DNA of 39,365 nt from Bacillus sp. FJAT-27245 (lineage in GTDB: Bacteria > Bacillota > Bacilli > Bacillales > Cytobacillaceae), in NCBI RefSeq assembly GCF_001273955.1, contig NZ_LIGI01000001.1:1911112-1950476 (forward strand). Direction: 5' to 3'. Below are positions 1,048-39,365 of this stretch, one piece after another. The notes under the pieces were generated by a model. The model searched no databases. It saw only the letters and a program-made list of their open reading frames with translations, and was not told where the DNA came from. The translations under genes were made by a program, and so were the position numbers. Positions within the stretch are counted from its first letter, which is position 1; each line of letters starts with the position of its first letter.

Positions 1048-1307
1048 TGAAGACAGTTTCAAAGATCGTTTCCGTTTGAAAGTGTCCTCATCAAGTGTAT
1101 GAAGACAGGTTCGAGGTGGGTTTTCCATTGGAAGTGTCTTCATTAAGGGTATGAAGACAGTTTCGGAGTAATATTCCCGTTGAAGGTGTCTTCATTAAAT
1201 GTATGAAGGCAGGTTCGGAATGGATTTTACTTTGAAAGTGTCTTCATTAAGGGTATGAAGGCAGTTTCTAAGCGAATAGTCCATTAAAAGTGTCTTCATC
1301 GATCTCG
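1048..1307. repeat. Tandem array, five 52-bp units with complementary ends
   Basis: Units begin with TGAAGACAG, TGAAGACAG, TGAAGACAG, TGAAGGCAG and TGAAGGCAG at 1048, 1100, 1152, 1204 and 1256, an exact 52-base period. Each unit contains TGTCTTCA (TGTCCTCA in the first) near its end. TGAAGACAGTTTC can therefore pair with GAAAGTGTCTTCA inside a unit, and TGTCTTCAT can pair with ATGAAGACA across a boundary with a 7-base loop. The middle of each unit is poorly conserved. The array lies between the 3' ends of two convergent genes. A 52-base period is not a multiple of 3, which argues against coding. The remaining 1308-1415 shows no gene. Confidence 0.9.
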
Positions 1308-11714: not shown

Positions 11715-11743
11715 TTTACAGTACTGAAGGAATATGGTATAGT
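11715..11743 (+). promoter_or_regulatory. Sigma-A promoter of the cold-shock gene
   Basis: TTTACA (11715-11720), a 17-base spacer and TATAGT (11738-11743). Transcription would start near 11750, giving a leader of about 108 bases. Long structured leaders are typical of cold-shock genes and control their translation by temperature. Confidence 0.7.
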
Positions 11744-11857
11744 TGTTAATGCCGTTATACGGATTGGCGCTTCGAAAATTGGGTTTTCGCAGCAAGCCGA
11801 AGTCTGTTGGCGAAATTTACACTTGGCCGAACATGGCCACTAGGAGGATTTTGTTAG

Positions 11858-12058
11858 ATGAAAAACGGTAAAGTTAAATGGTTCAACGCAGAAAAAGGTT
11901 TTGGCTTCATTGAGACAGAGGAAGGCAACGACGTATTCGTCCACTTCTCTGCAATCCAATCCGAAGGCTTCAAATCTCTTGAGGAAGGCGAAGAAGTTTC
12001 TTTCGAAATCGTTGAAGGAGCACGCGGCCCTCAAGCAGCCAACGTAACGAAATTATAA
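11858..12058 (+). CDS. Cold-shock protein (CspA/CspB family)
   Basis: 66 residues, a single OB-fold. Both RNA-binding motifs are intact: KGFGFIE (RNP1) and VFVHFSAI (RNP2); the C-terminal [10 protein letters not shown] is also typical. It binds single-stranded RNA and DNA and acts as an RNA chaperone. TAGGAGGA precedes the ATG. It has its own promoter with a long leader and its own terminator. Bacillaceae carry several paralogues, so I do not choose between cspB, cspC and cspD. Confidence 0.96.
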
Positions 12059-12077
12059 TAGCCAGACCCGATAAAAA

Positions 12078-12108
12078 ACAGCCAGGCCCAAGTGCCTGGC
12101 TGTTTTTC
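12078..12108 (+). terminator. Terminator of the cold-shock gene
   Basis: ACAGCCAGGC-CCAAGT-GCCTGGCTGT, a perfect 10-bp stem, followed by T-rich DNA. Confidence 0.93.
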
Positions 12109-16930: not shown

Positions 16931-17156
16931 TGAAGACGGTTTTGTTAGGGTTTTGTCGTTGAAAGAGTCACTTAGTTCCAGTAAATTACAGGTGAAGACC
17001 GTTTCGAAGGGGAACTTGTCTCGAAACGGTCTTCATCGCCTTTATGAAGACCGTTTTGTCGGGGGTTTATTGTTGAAATAGTCTTCATGTTCCATTAAAT
17101 TACAGATGAAGACCGTTTCAAAGAGTCTAAGGCCTCGAAACGGTCTTCATATAACG
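16931..17156. repeat. Hairpin array of four GAAGAC units, alternating 62 and 52 bp
   Basis: Units begin with TGAAGAC at 16931, 16993, 17045 and 17107, so spacings alternate 62, 52, 62. Units 2 and 4 hold near-perfect long inverted repeats: TGAAGACCGTTTCGA pairs with TCGAAACGGTCTTCA across a 13-base loop in unit 2. Units 1 and 3 are degenerate hairpins ending in a shared tail (TTCCAttAAATTACAG-like). The array is thus a duplicated 114-bp pair. It sits between the convergent ends of sbcC and the GNAT gene. The stem is related to that of the array at 1048. The rest of 16918-17249 shows no gene. Confidence 0.88.
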
Positions 17157-29118: not shown

Positions 29119-29389
29119 CCTATTAGCATGGTGGTGGTGTAGTATAGTCGGGGATTGGTCGCTGTAAATGTGGCGGAAATGTGACAGTTTTCGATATCGT
29201 CTTTGAAAGTTTCGATATATTCAAAAAAGTGGGGGATAAAATTAAAAAAGTTTCGATAAGTGGTCCGAAACTTTCGTTATATTTTCCCCTTCCCAAAAAG
29301 AGCATAATTAATATTCAAATTCTACTAAAATTCGGCAGGAAAATTACAAAACAAATAGAATATGAACAGAAAGAAAGGAGGAATAGAGT

Positions 29390-37094: not shown

Positions 37095-37363
37095 GCAGTA
37101 CATAGGAGTTGCTTTTTCAAAAAAGTTCTGTCGATAGGAATAGGAGCTGTTTATATTCTGGCGATAGTTGTAGAAGCTGTTTTTGTGAATATGTGTTGCG
37201 ATTTTAGGAATATTCGCATTTACTGTCGTTTCCTGCTTTTTCCATGGTTACCTGCCGCATAAAGAGGAAAAATAATGGAGTCAACATTATTTCGGAAAAA
37301 TAACGTTTTTTACATTTTTCATAAGAAATAATGGCAGCAATTTTTAAGAAGGCAGGAGATACA
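37095..37363. other. Gene-free stretch upstream of azoR
   Basis: AT-rich. It encodes a short hydrophobic stretch (KKVLSIGIGAVYILAIVVEA) without a credible start, possibly decayed. AATAATG at 37271-37277 is complementary to CATTATT at 37285-37291, a weak candidate operator for azoR. I see nothing else. Confidence 0.4.
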
Positions 37364-37999
37364 ATGGCGCAGGTTTTATACATCACCGCTCATCCCCATG
37401 ACGATACGGTTTCCTACAGCATGGCAGTTGGTAAAGCTTTTATCGAAGCGTACCGGGAAGCAAATCCCAATGACGAGGTGATCCACCTTGATTTGTACAA
37501 GGAGGATATTCCGCAAATAGACGTAGACGTTTTCAGCGGCTGGGGAAAACTTCGTTCGGGATCTTCGTTTGACGAGTTATCCAGCGAGGAAAAACGGAAA
37601 GTAACCCGGCTTGGCGAATTGACAGACCAGTTTGTCGCCGCAGACAAGTACGTGTTTGTAACGCCGCTCTGGAACTTTTCCTTCCCGCCTGTCATGAAAG
37701 CGTATATCGATTCCATCTGTACCGCAGGAAAAACATTCAAGTACACAGAAAAGGGACCAGTCGGGCTGTTGACTGATAAAAAAGCACTCCATATCCAGGC
37801 GCGTGGAGGCGTTTACGCGGAAGGACCAGCCGCGGCAATGGAAATGGGCCACCGCTATATCGGAATCATCATGCAGTTCTTTGGCATCCCATCCTTTGAT
37901 GGCCTGTTCGTCGAAGGGCAAAACCAGTTCCCCGACCGGGCACAGCAAATCAAGGAAGACGCCATCAGGAGAGCGCAGGAATTGGCAAAGACTTTTTAA
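37364..37999 (+). CDS. azoR: FMN-dependent NADH-azoreductase
   Basis: 211 residues; flavodoxin-like fold. [20 protein letters not shown] is the phosphate-binding start. [19 protein letters not shown] and the glycine-rich ARGGVYAEG are the FMN-binding loops typical of AzoR. It reduces azo dyes and quinones using NADH and protects against thiol-reactive electrophiles. ATG at 37364 after GGCAGGAG; the open frame upstream to 37331 is not needed. Length equals B. subtilis AzoR1 (about 208-211). Followed by a terminator. Confidence 0.94.
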
Positions 38000-38008
38000 T
38001 ACTTGGAT

Positions 38009-38040
38009 GGCACGGGGCTTTTACGGCGCCGTGCCTTTTG
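38009..38040 (+). terminator. Terminator of azoR
   Basis: GGCACGG / CCGTGCC stem with an extra GC pair inside, followed by TTTT. Confidence 0.75.
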
Positions 38041-38225
38041 AGGTTATACCAGCGAAAAGGAATTCAAATGGCAATCAAATCTCTGTTGAATGTTCTGATT
38101 GTCAAAAAAGGTGTCGTTCGAATTAACATGGCCGAAAAGGATAGGCTAAATCATGAAAAGGTGTCGCTCTAGAAAAATGAGTGATAACAATTTTAAAAAA
38201 ACGGTTGGTTGTAATTCGTCATTAT

Positions 38226-38640
38226 GCCATTTGGGCACTGAAGTAGCGTAACCTTTAGTTGCTGTCCAATTGGGTGCTTCATTTGGACAATGAAGCAGCG
38301 AGACCTTCAGTAGCTGTCCAAATCGGTGCCATATTTGGACACTGAAGTAGCGTAACCCCCCATTTGTTGTCCAAATCGGTGCGTTATTTGGACATTAAAG
38401 TTGCGCAACCTCCATTTGTTGTCCAAATCTTTGCCTTATTTGGACACCGAAGTAGCGCAACCCCCATTTGTTGTCCAAATCGGTGCCTTATTTGGACACC
38501 GAAGTAGCGCAACCTCCAATTGCTGTCCAAATCGGTGCCTTATTTGGACACCGAAGTAGCGTAACCTTCATTTGTTGTCCAAATCTCTACCTTATTTGGA
38601 CACCGAAGTAGCGAGACCTTAATTTGCTGTCCAAACTTCA
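38226..38640. repeat. Tandem array, eight 52-bp units with complementary ends
   Basis: TTTGG starts units at 38230, 38282, 38334, 38387, 38439, 38491, 38543 and 38595; all steps are 52 except one of 53. Each unit opens TTTGGACAC and ends TTGTCCAAAT, so TGTCCAAAT pairs with ATTTGGACA across a boundary with a 10-base loop. The same halves can pair inside a unit, and CGGTG with CACCG gives a competing fold in some units. Units 3-8 are very similar. The frame is not open. It lies beyond the azoR terminator. The flanks 38041-38225 and 38641-38890 show no gene. Confidence 0.93.
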
Positions 38641-38890
38641 AGTACCTTTGCACTCGCATCCCTTAAAAACCTGTTTTTAAAAATAATCACACTTTAGTTT
38701 TACTTGAATCCCCAGTGCATCCCCCAAAAGACCACAGTAGCGAATTAGATTAACCCAACCACCAAATTGCCTAGTCAAAAACCCAACGACCTGCTCTCCG
38801 CTTTCCGCAGATAAGGATAACCAATAGGATTAAAATTCTCATAAAATGCTCCTTTGGTTTATAATGGAAGAAAACGAGAGGGGATTGGAA

Positions 38891-39262
38891 ATGAAATTCA
38901 CTTTCAAACAACTTGACCATGTCCAGCTAGCCGCACCAAAAGGATGCGAGGAGGATGCGCGTCTATTTTACGCGAAAATATTAGGGTTTACGGAAATTGA
39001 AAAACCGCCTGCTTTAAAAAAGAGAGGCGGCGCTTGGTTTCAGAACGGAACTATCCAACTACATATCGGCGTCGAGGATCCGTTCCTTCCGGCAAAAAAG
39101 GCGCATCCCGCTTTTGAAATCGAGAATATCGAAATGTTAAAGGCCCATTTGAGGGGAAATGGGGTCGACATCATTGTCGATGAAAACCTTCCTGGCGCGA
39201 ACCGGTTTTATGCCGCGGACCCATTCGGCAACAGACTAGAATTCCTTGAGTGGATGAAGTAG
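38891..39262 (+). CDS. VOC-family (glyoxalase-like) protein
   Basis: 123 residues with two beta-alpha-beta-beta-beta modules: LDHVQLAAPKGCEEDARLFYAKILGF in the first, and HPAFEIENIEMLKAHL, then RFYAADPFGNRLEFLEW in the second. Metal ligands of the fold are suggested by the His in DHVQL, the His in QLHIGV and the Glu in RLEFLE. It could be a glyoxalase, bleomycin-resistance-like or dioxygenase-like protein; substrate unknown. I start at the ATG at 38891, since AGAGGGGA precedes it; the open frame begins 45 bases earlier. Confidence 0.88.
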   Translation: MKFTFKQLDHVQLAAPKGCEEDARLFYAKILGFTEIEKPPALKKRGGAWFQNGTIQLHIGVEDPFLPAKKAHPAFEIENIEMLKAHLRGNGVDIIVDENLPGANRFYAADPFGNRLEFLEWMK

Positions 39263-39263
39263 C

Positions 39264-39365
39264 CACAGAAGACTAGCCAGACGTGGATTCCATGAATGGT
39301 GAAATAAACACAGAAGACTACGCAGGCGCGCGTTCCATGAGCGGTGAAATAAACACAGAAGACTA
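39264..39365. repeat. Start of a 45-bp tandem array
   Basis: CACAGAAGACTA occurs at 39264, 39309 and 39354, an exact 45-base period, and the units share TTCCATGA-GGTGAAATAAA. Only two full units are visible; the array continues past the window edge. It starts two bases after the VOC gene stop. Confidence 0.85.

Follow-up and report, generated by a model that had tools for sequence, protein, structure and literature searches.

The window, by which we mean the whole 39,365-nucleotide stretch of the Bacillus sp. FJAT-27245 genome analyzed here, contains a tandem array near its right end, in the 846-bp gap between a Flavodoxin_2 gene, which we take to be AzoR-like and refer to as azoR, and a gene for a Glyoxalase/VOC protein. 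The host is Neobacillus-like. The features are listed below in window coordinates.

1076..1299, no strand assigned: second 52-bp array of similar architecture, word TGTCTTCAT-N7-ATGAAGACA, 25-bp hairpin (TRF)
37331-37999: gene upstream of the array, Flavodoxin_2 (PF02525, E 4.7e-48)
38009..38036, + strand: GGCACGG...CCGTGCC inverted repeat with TTTT after it, just past azoR, terminator-like by eye
38229..38635, no strand assigned: 52-bp tandem array of about eight units (TRF, hairpin positions, chance control)
38230..38237, + strand: first right arm, degenerate TTTGGGCA (sequence)
38263..38289, no strand assigned: hairpin 1, imperfect, TGTCCAATTGGGTGCTTCATTTGGACA
38315..38341, no strand assigned: hairpin 2
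38368..38394, no strand assigned: hairpin 3, past the single 53-bp step
38420..38446, no strand assigned: hairpin 4
38472..38498, no strand assigned: hairpin 5
38524..38550, no strand assigned: hairpin 6
38576..38602, no strand assigned: hairpin 7
38628..38635, + strand: last left arm TGTCCAAA, a half unit without a full partner, at the array end
38846-39262: gene downstream of the array, Glyoxalase/VOC protein (PF00903, E 2.6e-7)

TRF assigns the array a period of 52 with 7.8 copies and 84% matches over 38229-38635. The azoR–VOC gap reaches a best TRF score of 555, whereas none of 1000 first-order Markov shuffles scores above 58 (periods of 15 or more), in line with the eight-unit 52-bp array described in the first-pass annotation. 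Each unit is composed of a 27-bp hairpin, TGTCCAAAT-N9-ATTTGGACA, and a 25-bp linker with a consensus of about CCGAAGTAGCGNAACCTNNATTTGN; along the array the order is ATTTGGACA, 25 bp, TGTCCAAAT, 9 bp. These hairpins account for the complementary unit ends noted earlier. Their positions give seven hairpin-to-hairpin steps of 52, 53, 52, 52, 52, 52, and 52 bp, reproducing the earlier count of six steps of 52 and one of 53. Unit 1 is degenerate (TTTGGGCA; TGTCCAATT).

All six reading frames over the array are interrupted by 4-6 stops each, and none of the listed ORFs of at least 80 aa covers it, so the earlier statement that the repeat has no conserved frame holds. An Rfam scan returned no family at its threshold over the array; the sole Rfam match in the window is the cspA thermoregulator RNA family at 11726-12107 (82 bits). 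Window 38229-38635 is confirmed as a real non-coding repeat, far beyond chance.

The array is located beyond the terminator-like inverted repeat at 38009..38036. A scan of 37950-38900 for intrinsic terminators (GC-rich hairpin plus T run) found none with loops limited to 3-8, a limit under which GGCACGG...CCGTGCC at 38009..38036 is not called. The arms of the array run into a CCGAAG-type linker, not a T run. On the other side of the gap, a 45-bp tandem repeat of 5.4 copies begins shortly before the stop of the VOC gene and continues after it into the 3' flank (39241-39365 and past the window end; L001 2539-2788). Elsewhere in the window, an intergenic repeat at 16931-17150 has GAAACGGTCTTCAT / ATGAAGACCGTTTC inverted words and a period of about 114.

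The array almost certainly belongs to the 52-nt tandem-repeat class of Bacillus (PMC8161180). According to the main text of that study (Subirana & Messeguer 2021), 1886 of 4029 tandem repeats in 176 Bacillus genomes, B. infantis being among the species covered, are 51-53 nt long, which makes the 52-nt repeats the commonest tandem-repeat class in Bacillus; 781 tandem repeats of 20-21 nt are reported from the same 176 genomes, and B. subtilis 168 is counted with the species poor in repeats. The class is described there as constant in size and variable in sequence, without sequence conservation, with several families per genome and with each species having its own short signals and their reverse inside one repeat. 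A protein polymerizing on DNA, or small RNAs, are proposed to underlie it (PMC8161180).

As far as the main text defines the class, the likeness is close. The array has a length within 51-53 nt and at least four repeats (7.8 copies, steps of 52 and 53), within the typical 4-10 units; it is non-coding, with stops in six frames; and its units hold a short word and its reverse, TTTGGACA and TGTCCAAA, unit 1 being degenerate. The host has several 52-nt families of different sequence in one genome (nine arrays), and the partner class of 20-21-nt repeats is present in its genome as well. The first-pass annotation did not recognize a described repeat class; this view has to be given up, as the 52-nt class is published (PMC8161180).

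Arrays of 20-21-bp direct words, equivalent to about two helical turns, lie at window 29206-29259 and at L112 2002-2404 and 6372-6818, L010 4893-4971, and L069 1138-1468; their words are TATCGAAA, TTTATGAACCG, TGCCTAA, and ATATCACCGAAA. They belong to the 20-21-nt class that accompanies the 52-nt repeats.

The unit was searched for in the whole genome and in relatives, as had been suggested. With the array as query, blastn finds 13 further places in the host genome at 71-81% identity, and among 60 relatives a match to the array DNA occurs in G005 only, which is Neobacillus piezotolerans by identity of its azoR region with the named record. Plasmid and phage collections gave no array match at blastn sensitivity. 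The GGACA word is scattered through the host genome and that of N. piezotolerans with other linkers. Of 87 adjacent GGACA/TGTCC words less than 60 bp apart at 15 GGACA loci of these two genomes, 68 have a spacing of exactly 22 or 30 bp. Exact TGTCCAAAT/TTTGGACA hairpins number 12 in the host genome, six of them within this array, and all 12 are 27 bp long, though N5-14 was permitted. Hairpins at up to three mismatches exceed the reversed control in the host (89/17), in G005 (128/17), and in G185 (149/22), with smaller ratios in G094 (52/28) and G149 (58/31).

In 839 kb of host sequence (the window plus 40 grid stretches), nine arrays of period 52 and none of period 51 or 53 were detected. They use at least four words (GGACA, GAAGACA, AAGACCGTTT, and CCGAAC/TTCGGGC). 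In G185, a 21-hairpin GGACA array (L152, C1:3952500-3954800) has a higher-order repeat of roughly 313 bp and six units, a sign of unequal recombination.

Three of the five 5S genes of the host, those without a tRNA gene in the next 1.5 kb (L367, L370, L371), have GGACA/TGTCC words, which begin 167-181 bp past the 5S match and span 167 to 484 bp 3' of it. The two tRNA-followed 5S genes have none except one stray GGACA. Since the three loci are homologous copies with flanks 80-92% identical, the association may be one event, and a link of GGACA words to ribosomal operons was set aside.

The gap after azoR differs among close relatives. In AzoR the host shares 94% identity with N. piezotolerans and 92% with Bacillus sp. 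FJAT-27445; the gap in N. piezotolerans holds another word, AAGACCGTTTC, twice, and that in FJAT-27445 has TATCGAAA five times at a spacing of about 21 bp. No repeat word is seen by eye in the gap of G001. In Bacillus sp. EB01, azoR has a different downstream neighbor, with AGGACA words at about 20-21 bp. The gaps of these relatives do not look alignable by eye, and from the other repeat words after azoR the arrays seem to be replaced faster than the genes. TRF on 679 kb around 80 azoR loci from named relatives yields a single 52-bp array, that of Bacillus infantis, about 0.7 kb upstream of the azoR homolog (L020 2694-3260).

Beyond the host and N. piezotolerans, many arrays very probably share one grammar, in which TGTC-N19-GACA hairpins of 27 bp alternate with 25-bp linkers; our confidence was lowered slightly because the sampled genomes had been picked as carriers. 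A whole-genome search for TGTC-N19-GACA-N25-TGTC-N19-GACA finds this double unit in 136 of the 193 family genomes and in 17 of 25 genera, with up to 615 matches in one genome. The reversed-pattern control matches once each in two of the 193 genomes. In an even sample of the class, nine of 398 genomes have the pattern, three of them in the host's family. Its presence differs within genera: one genome of g4 has no match and others have hundreds, and in g2 the count is 0 of 13 genomes. The main text of PMC8161180 describes species-specific signals, whereas here the TGTC-N19-GACA core with its 25-bp linker is common across genera. Six of 22 consensus repeats, taken from the 27 in Table 1 of that paper, contain TGTC-N19-GAC. 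A grammar joining families that have been described as unrelated in sequence seems to be new; none of the texts consulted on 52-nt repeats mentions the shared core, which leaves its absence from print unproved.

The sharpness of the grammar was assessed in stretches on a grid from the host and three known carriers (G005, G185, and G034). These four genomes are the ones in which other four-letter words were compared, and as all four carry the pattern, the tests speak for its sharpness and not for its frequency. With the geometry fixed and the word free (256 words), TGTC ranks first in the host (11, against 7 for GTTT), in G185 (9, next 0), and in G034 (21, next 1), and the G005 sample yields no four-letter word at the fixed geometry. 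Leaving the span open as well puts TGTC-27 at the top in G034 (21) and tied for the top in G185 (9), and in the host sample it has 11 against 13 for TTGG-39, which is ahead because whole arms repeat there. Conversely, with the word fixed and the geometry free (span 14-45, period 40-65), 41 of 49 TGTC..GACA matches fall at span 27 and period 52.

The core was also sought in 26 TRF arrays of period 51-53. Two or more TGTC..GACA spans of 25-27 are present in 13 of them (27 bp in 11 arrays, 25 in one, and 26 in one); another array has a single span and 12 have none. With 13 of 26 arrays lacking the core by this rule, the 52-bp length is not explained by TGTC/GACA alone. Two 52-bp arrays (L101 2949-3305 and L215 18467-18747) have AAGACCGTTT/AAACGGTCTT arms and no TGTC core, so that the 52-bp period extends beyond the TGTC/GACA subclass.

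The hairpin stems of the subclass were compared in arrays from 65 scanned loci: 8 of about 22 host GGACA loci, 13 of 16 from G005, and the rest from other genomes. Arrays were obtained at 62 loci (none at L003, L004, and L198), giving 65 arrays from 21 genomes, of which 58 were kept once near copies from one genome (above 80% alike) had been removed. Because these 58 arrays were collected by pattern, their near-invariant TGTC/GACA ends arise by construction and are no evidence. At the inner pairs 5-9, 227 of 290 cells show Watson-Crick pairing, a count inflated by the kinship of many of the 58 arrays; re-dealing the whole arms 1000 times averages 122.8 such cells and never exceeds 150. Pairs 6, 7, and 8 occur as all four pair types, and pairing fades beyond pair 10. 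Unlike stems (for example CCAAAT, CCTTCA, CCGTAT, CTCATA, and CAGAGG) are found in different genomes, each largely complementary; both G034 arrays pair poorly beyond TGTCA.

The linker has a pattern of its own. A/T runs over its central five columns total 141, against maxima of 79 for letter shuffles and 116 for rotations (2000 each, in a test independent of orientation). A central run is present in 38 of 58 arrays, and 15 of the 21 genomes have one in half or more of their arrays. The folded linker profile has a second, lower A/T peak near linker position 3. In the column table the unit orientation was optimized, so strand asymmetries there are partly by construction. When 13 harmonics of the A/T runs are compared, the one at 10.4 bp comes out highest in all four sets, which partly overlap; as it does not rise above shuffles (z 0.0 to 1.3), helical phasing at 10.4 bp is not claimed.

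Several known systems resemble the array in part. REP/BIME elements of enterobacteria are intergenic tandem inverted-repeat units with a possible gyrase or nucleoid role. The array likewise consists of intergenic inverted-repeat units in tandem, but it has a strict 52-bp period and no link to a RAYT gene. A GTAG-type tetranucleotide directly before the hairpin was not found in the array, where the four bases before TGTCC are TTGC, TAGC, and TTGT on the + strand and TCGG, TTAA, TCAG, and TCAT on the - strand. Integron attC sites have conserved short ends, a variable self-complementary stem, and are read by their fold. The array shares with them the conserved short ends around a variable, self-complementary stem; its ends, however, are TGTC/GACA, its 25-bp linkers are without genes, and the attC core GTTRRRY / RYYYAAC has no match on either strand of 38226-38640. 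With CRISPR the array has in common palindromic repeats at constant spacing, at a total period of 52, but its linkers repeat with the unit and are therefore not unique spacers.

A mobile hairpin family of the REP/BIME type, moved by a Y1 (RAYT/IS200-like) transposase, would fit the dispersed tandem inverted repeats and the three Y1_Tnp matches in the host genome. At the RAYT-like locus among these (L131), the flanking REP-like repeat is a different one, GTAGGGGTCAGACCC / CACTAGTGA, with no GGACA, and at the two IS200-like loci scattered GGACA/TGTCC words are present, none at the array spacing. Moreover, the TGTC array pattern is present in 14 of 20 listed genomes without a Y1_Tnp match, 506 times in G010 and 519 times in G126 (eight more genomes without a Y1_Tnp match lie outside these 20). 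Given the L131 repeat and the Y1-less carriers, a Y1/RAYT origin is rejected as the driver and very improbable, and the suggestion of a degenerate transposon array, tested for Y1/RAYT elements, is not supported. The L131 locus itself (about 2000-2380, near host C1:1984834) has a RAYT-like gene with a 191 aa frame beside a tandem repeat whose period, judged by eye, is roughly 109; the two are likely a REP/RAYT pair.

The array could instead act as RNA, transcribed from neighboring genes as a hairpin ladder that stabilizes 3' ends or as a sponge for a small RNA or protein. The 52-nt repeats of B. coagulans are transcribed, with matching RNA-seq reads reported in the main text of PMC8625621, so a role as RNA keeps some probability. 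The folding check recommended earlier was run, and the array folds beyond shuffles as RNA on the + strand (z -7.28) and the - strand (z -5.56); it is equally unusual as DNA (z -7.23), as any inverted-repeat array folds in this way. The covarying inner stems would also agree with RNA. Selection for sense RNA hairpins should favor G-U pairs on the transcribed strand. G-U against A-C mismatches stand at 24:22 sense to antisense, and at 33:23 in a larger, overlapping set that leans to sense; in the common orientation of units there are 45 G-U and 60 A-C. Between codirectional genes, the unit orientation is sense in 18 arrays and antisense in 13. There is thus no clear sense-RNA preference in the strand tests, and this lack of bias, together with the missing Rfam match, argues against RNA; it leans to DNA over sense RNA and proves neither. 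The roles suggested in the first-pass annotation are near the options in the literature, and the strand-bias check it called for gave no clear bias. We regard an RNA role as unlikely.

Arrays may avoid divergent gaps, a weak trend: 0 of 16, 7 of 53, and 5 of 39 arrays in three sets lie in such gaps, the last count including the miscalled L184 (a masked stretch taken as an ORF), compared with 27 of 145 background gaps no shorter than 150 bp, with genes called by a simple ORF rule.

The main rival, ahead of the RNA role, is a functionless 52-bp satellite, a by-product of hairpin-prone DNA whose word spreads neutrally or selfishly through slippage, unequal recombination, and template switching that corrects quasi-palindromes. 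Template switching can yield complementary arms without selection. Three observations agree with such an origin: units within the array resemble each other more closely (84% matches) than copies at different loci do (71-81% identity); the word in the gap after azoR varies among related species, with no word seen in one of them; and L152 contains a higher-order repeat. Neutral copying, however, does not predict that 17 of 25 genera share the TGTC/GACA ends and the 27+25 spacing, nor unlike inner stems and linkers beside constant ends, nor the sharp peak at (27,52). We consider the functionless reading rather improbable.

Our best guess overall, which we hold with evenly balanced confidence, is that the TGTC/GACA subclass forms a DNA-level row of sites for a putative protein. 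The subclass combines a fixed geometry and shared ends with covarying stems and wide dispersal. Its unit is a 27-bp inverted repeat with a stem of about 10 bp and a loop of about 7, followed by a 25-bp linker that tends to carry an A/T run near its middle. The array would act at the DNA level, each unit taking up about five helical turns and presenting a site to a putative protein that reads TGTC/GACA on a symmetric or cruciform/hairpin-prone element. It would serve as a local nucleoid or supercoiling element and not as a sense-strand RNA, placed for the most part in gaps at the 3' end of one or both neighboring genes. Changes in array length would come from unequal recombination or slippage inside the array, as suggested by units that are alike within arrays and less so between loci and by the six-unit repeat of L152. 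The DNA-level protein-site mechanism taken by itself is a serious candidate that falls somewhat short of probable. More tentatively, the arrays might embody a common code in at least 17 genera of one bacterial family, made of 27-bp hairpins with invariant TGTC/GACA ends and family-specific, covarying stems, set every five turns with an A-tract half-way, whose fold and ends would be read by a putative host protein as part of a chromosome-organizing system or a genome-wide parasite.

The 52-nt satellites are abundant and strictly fixed in length, and the published account, in its main text, stresses length without sequence (PMC8161180). The sharply spaced grammar offers a defined bait, the TGTC-N19-GACA unit, for seeking the function of the class or its reader protein, and the natural presence and absence within a genus, as in g4 with zero against hundreds of matches, permits a comparison of gene content. 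If a reader exists, it would represent a new nucleoid or mobile-hairpin system; if there is none, the arrays would illustrate how the length of a repeat can be fixed across genera by DNA structure alone.
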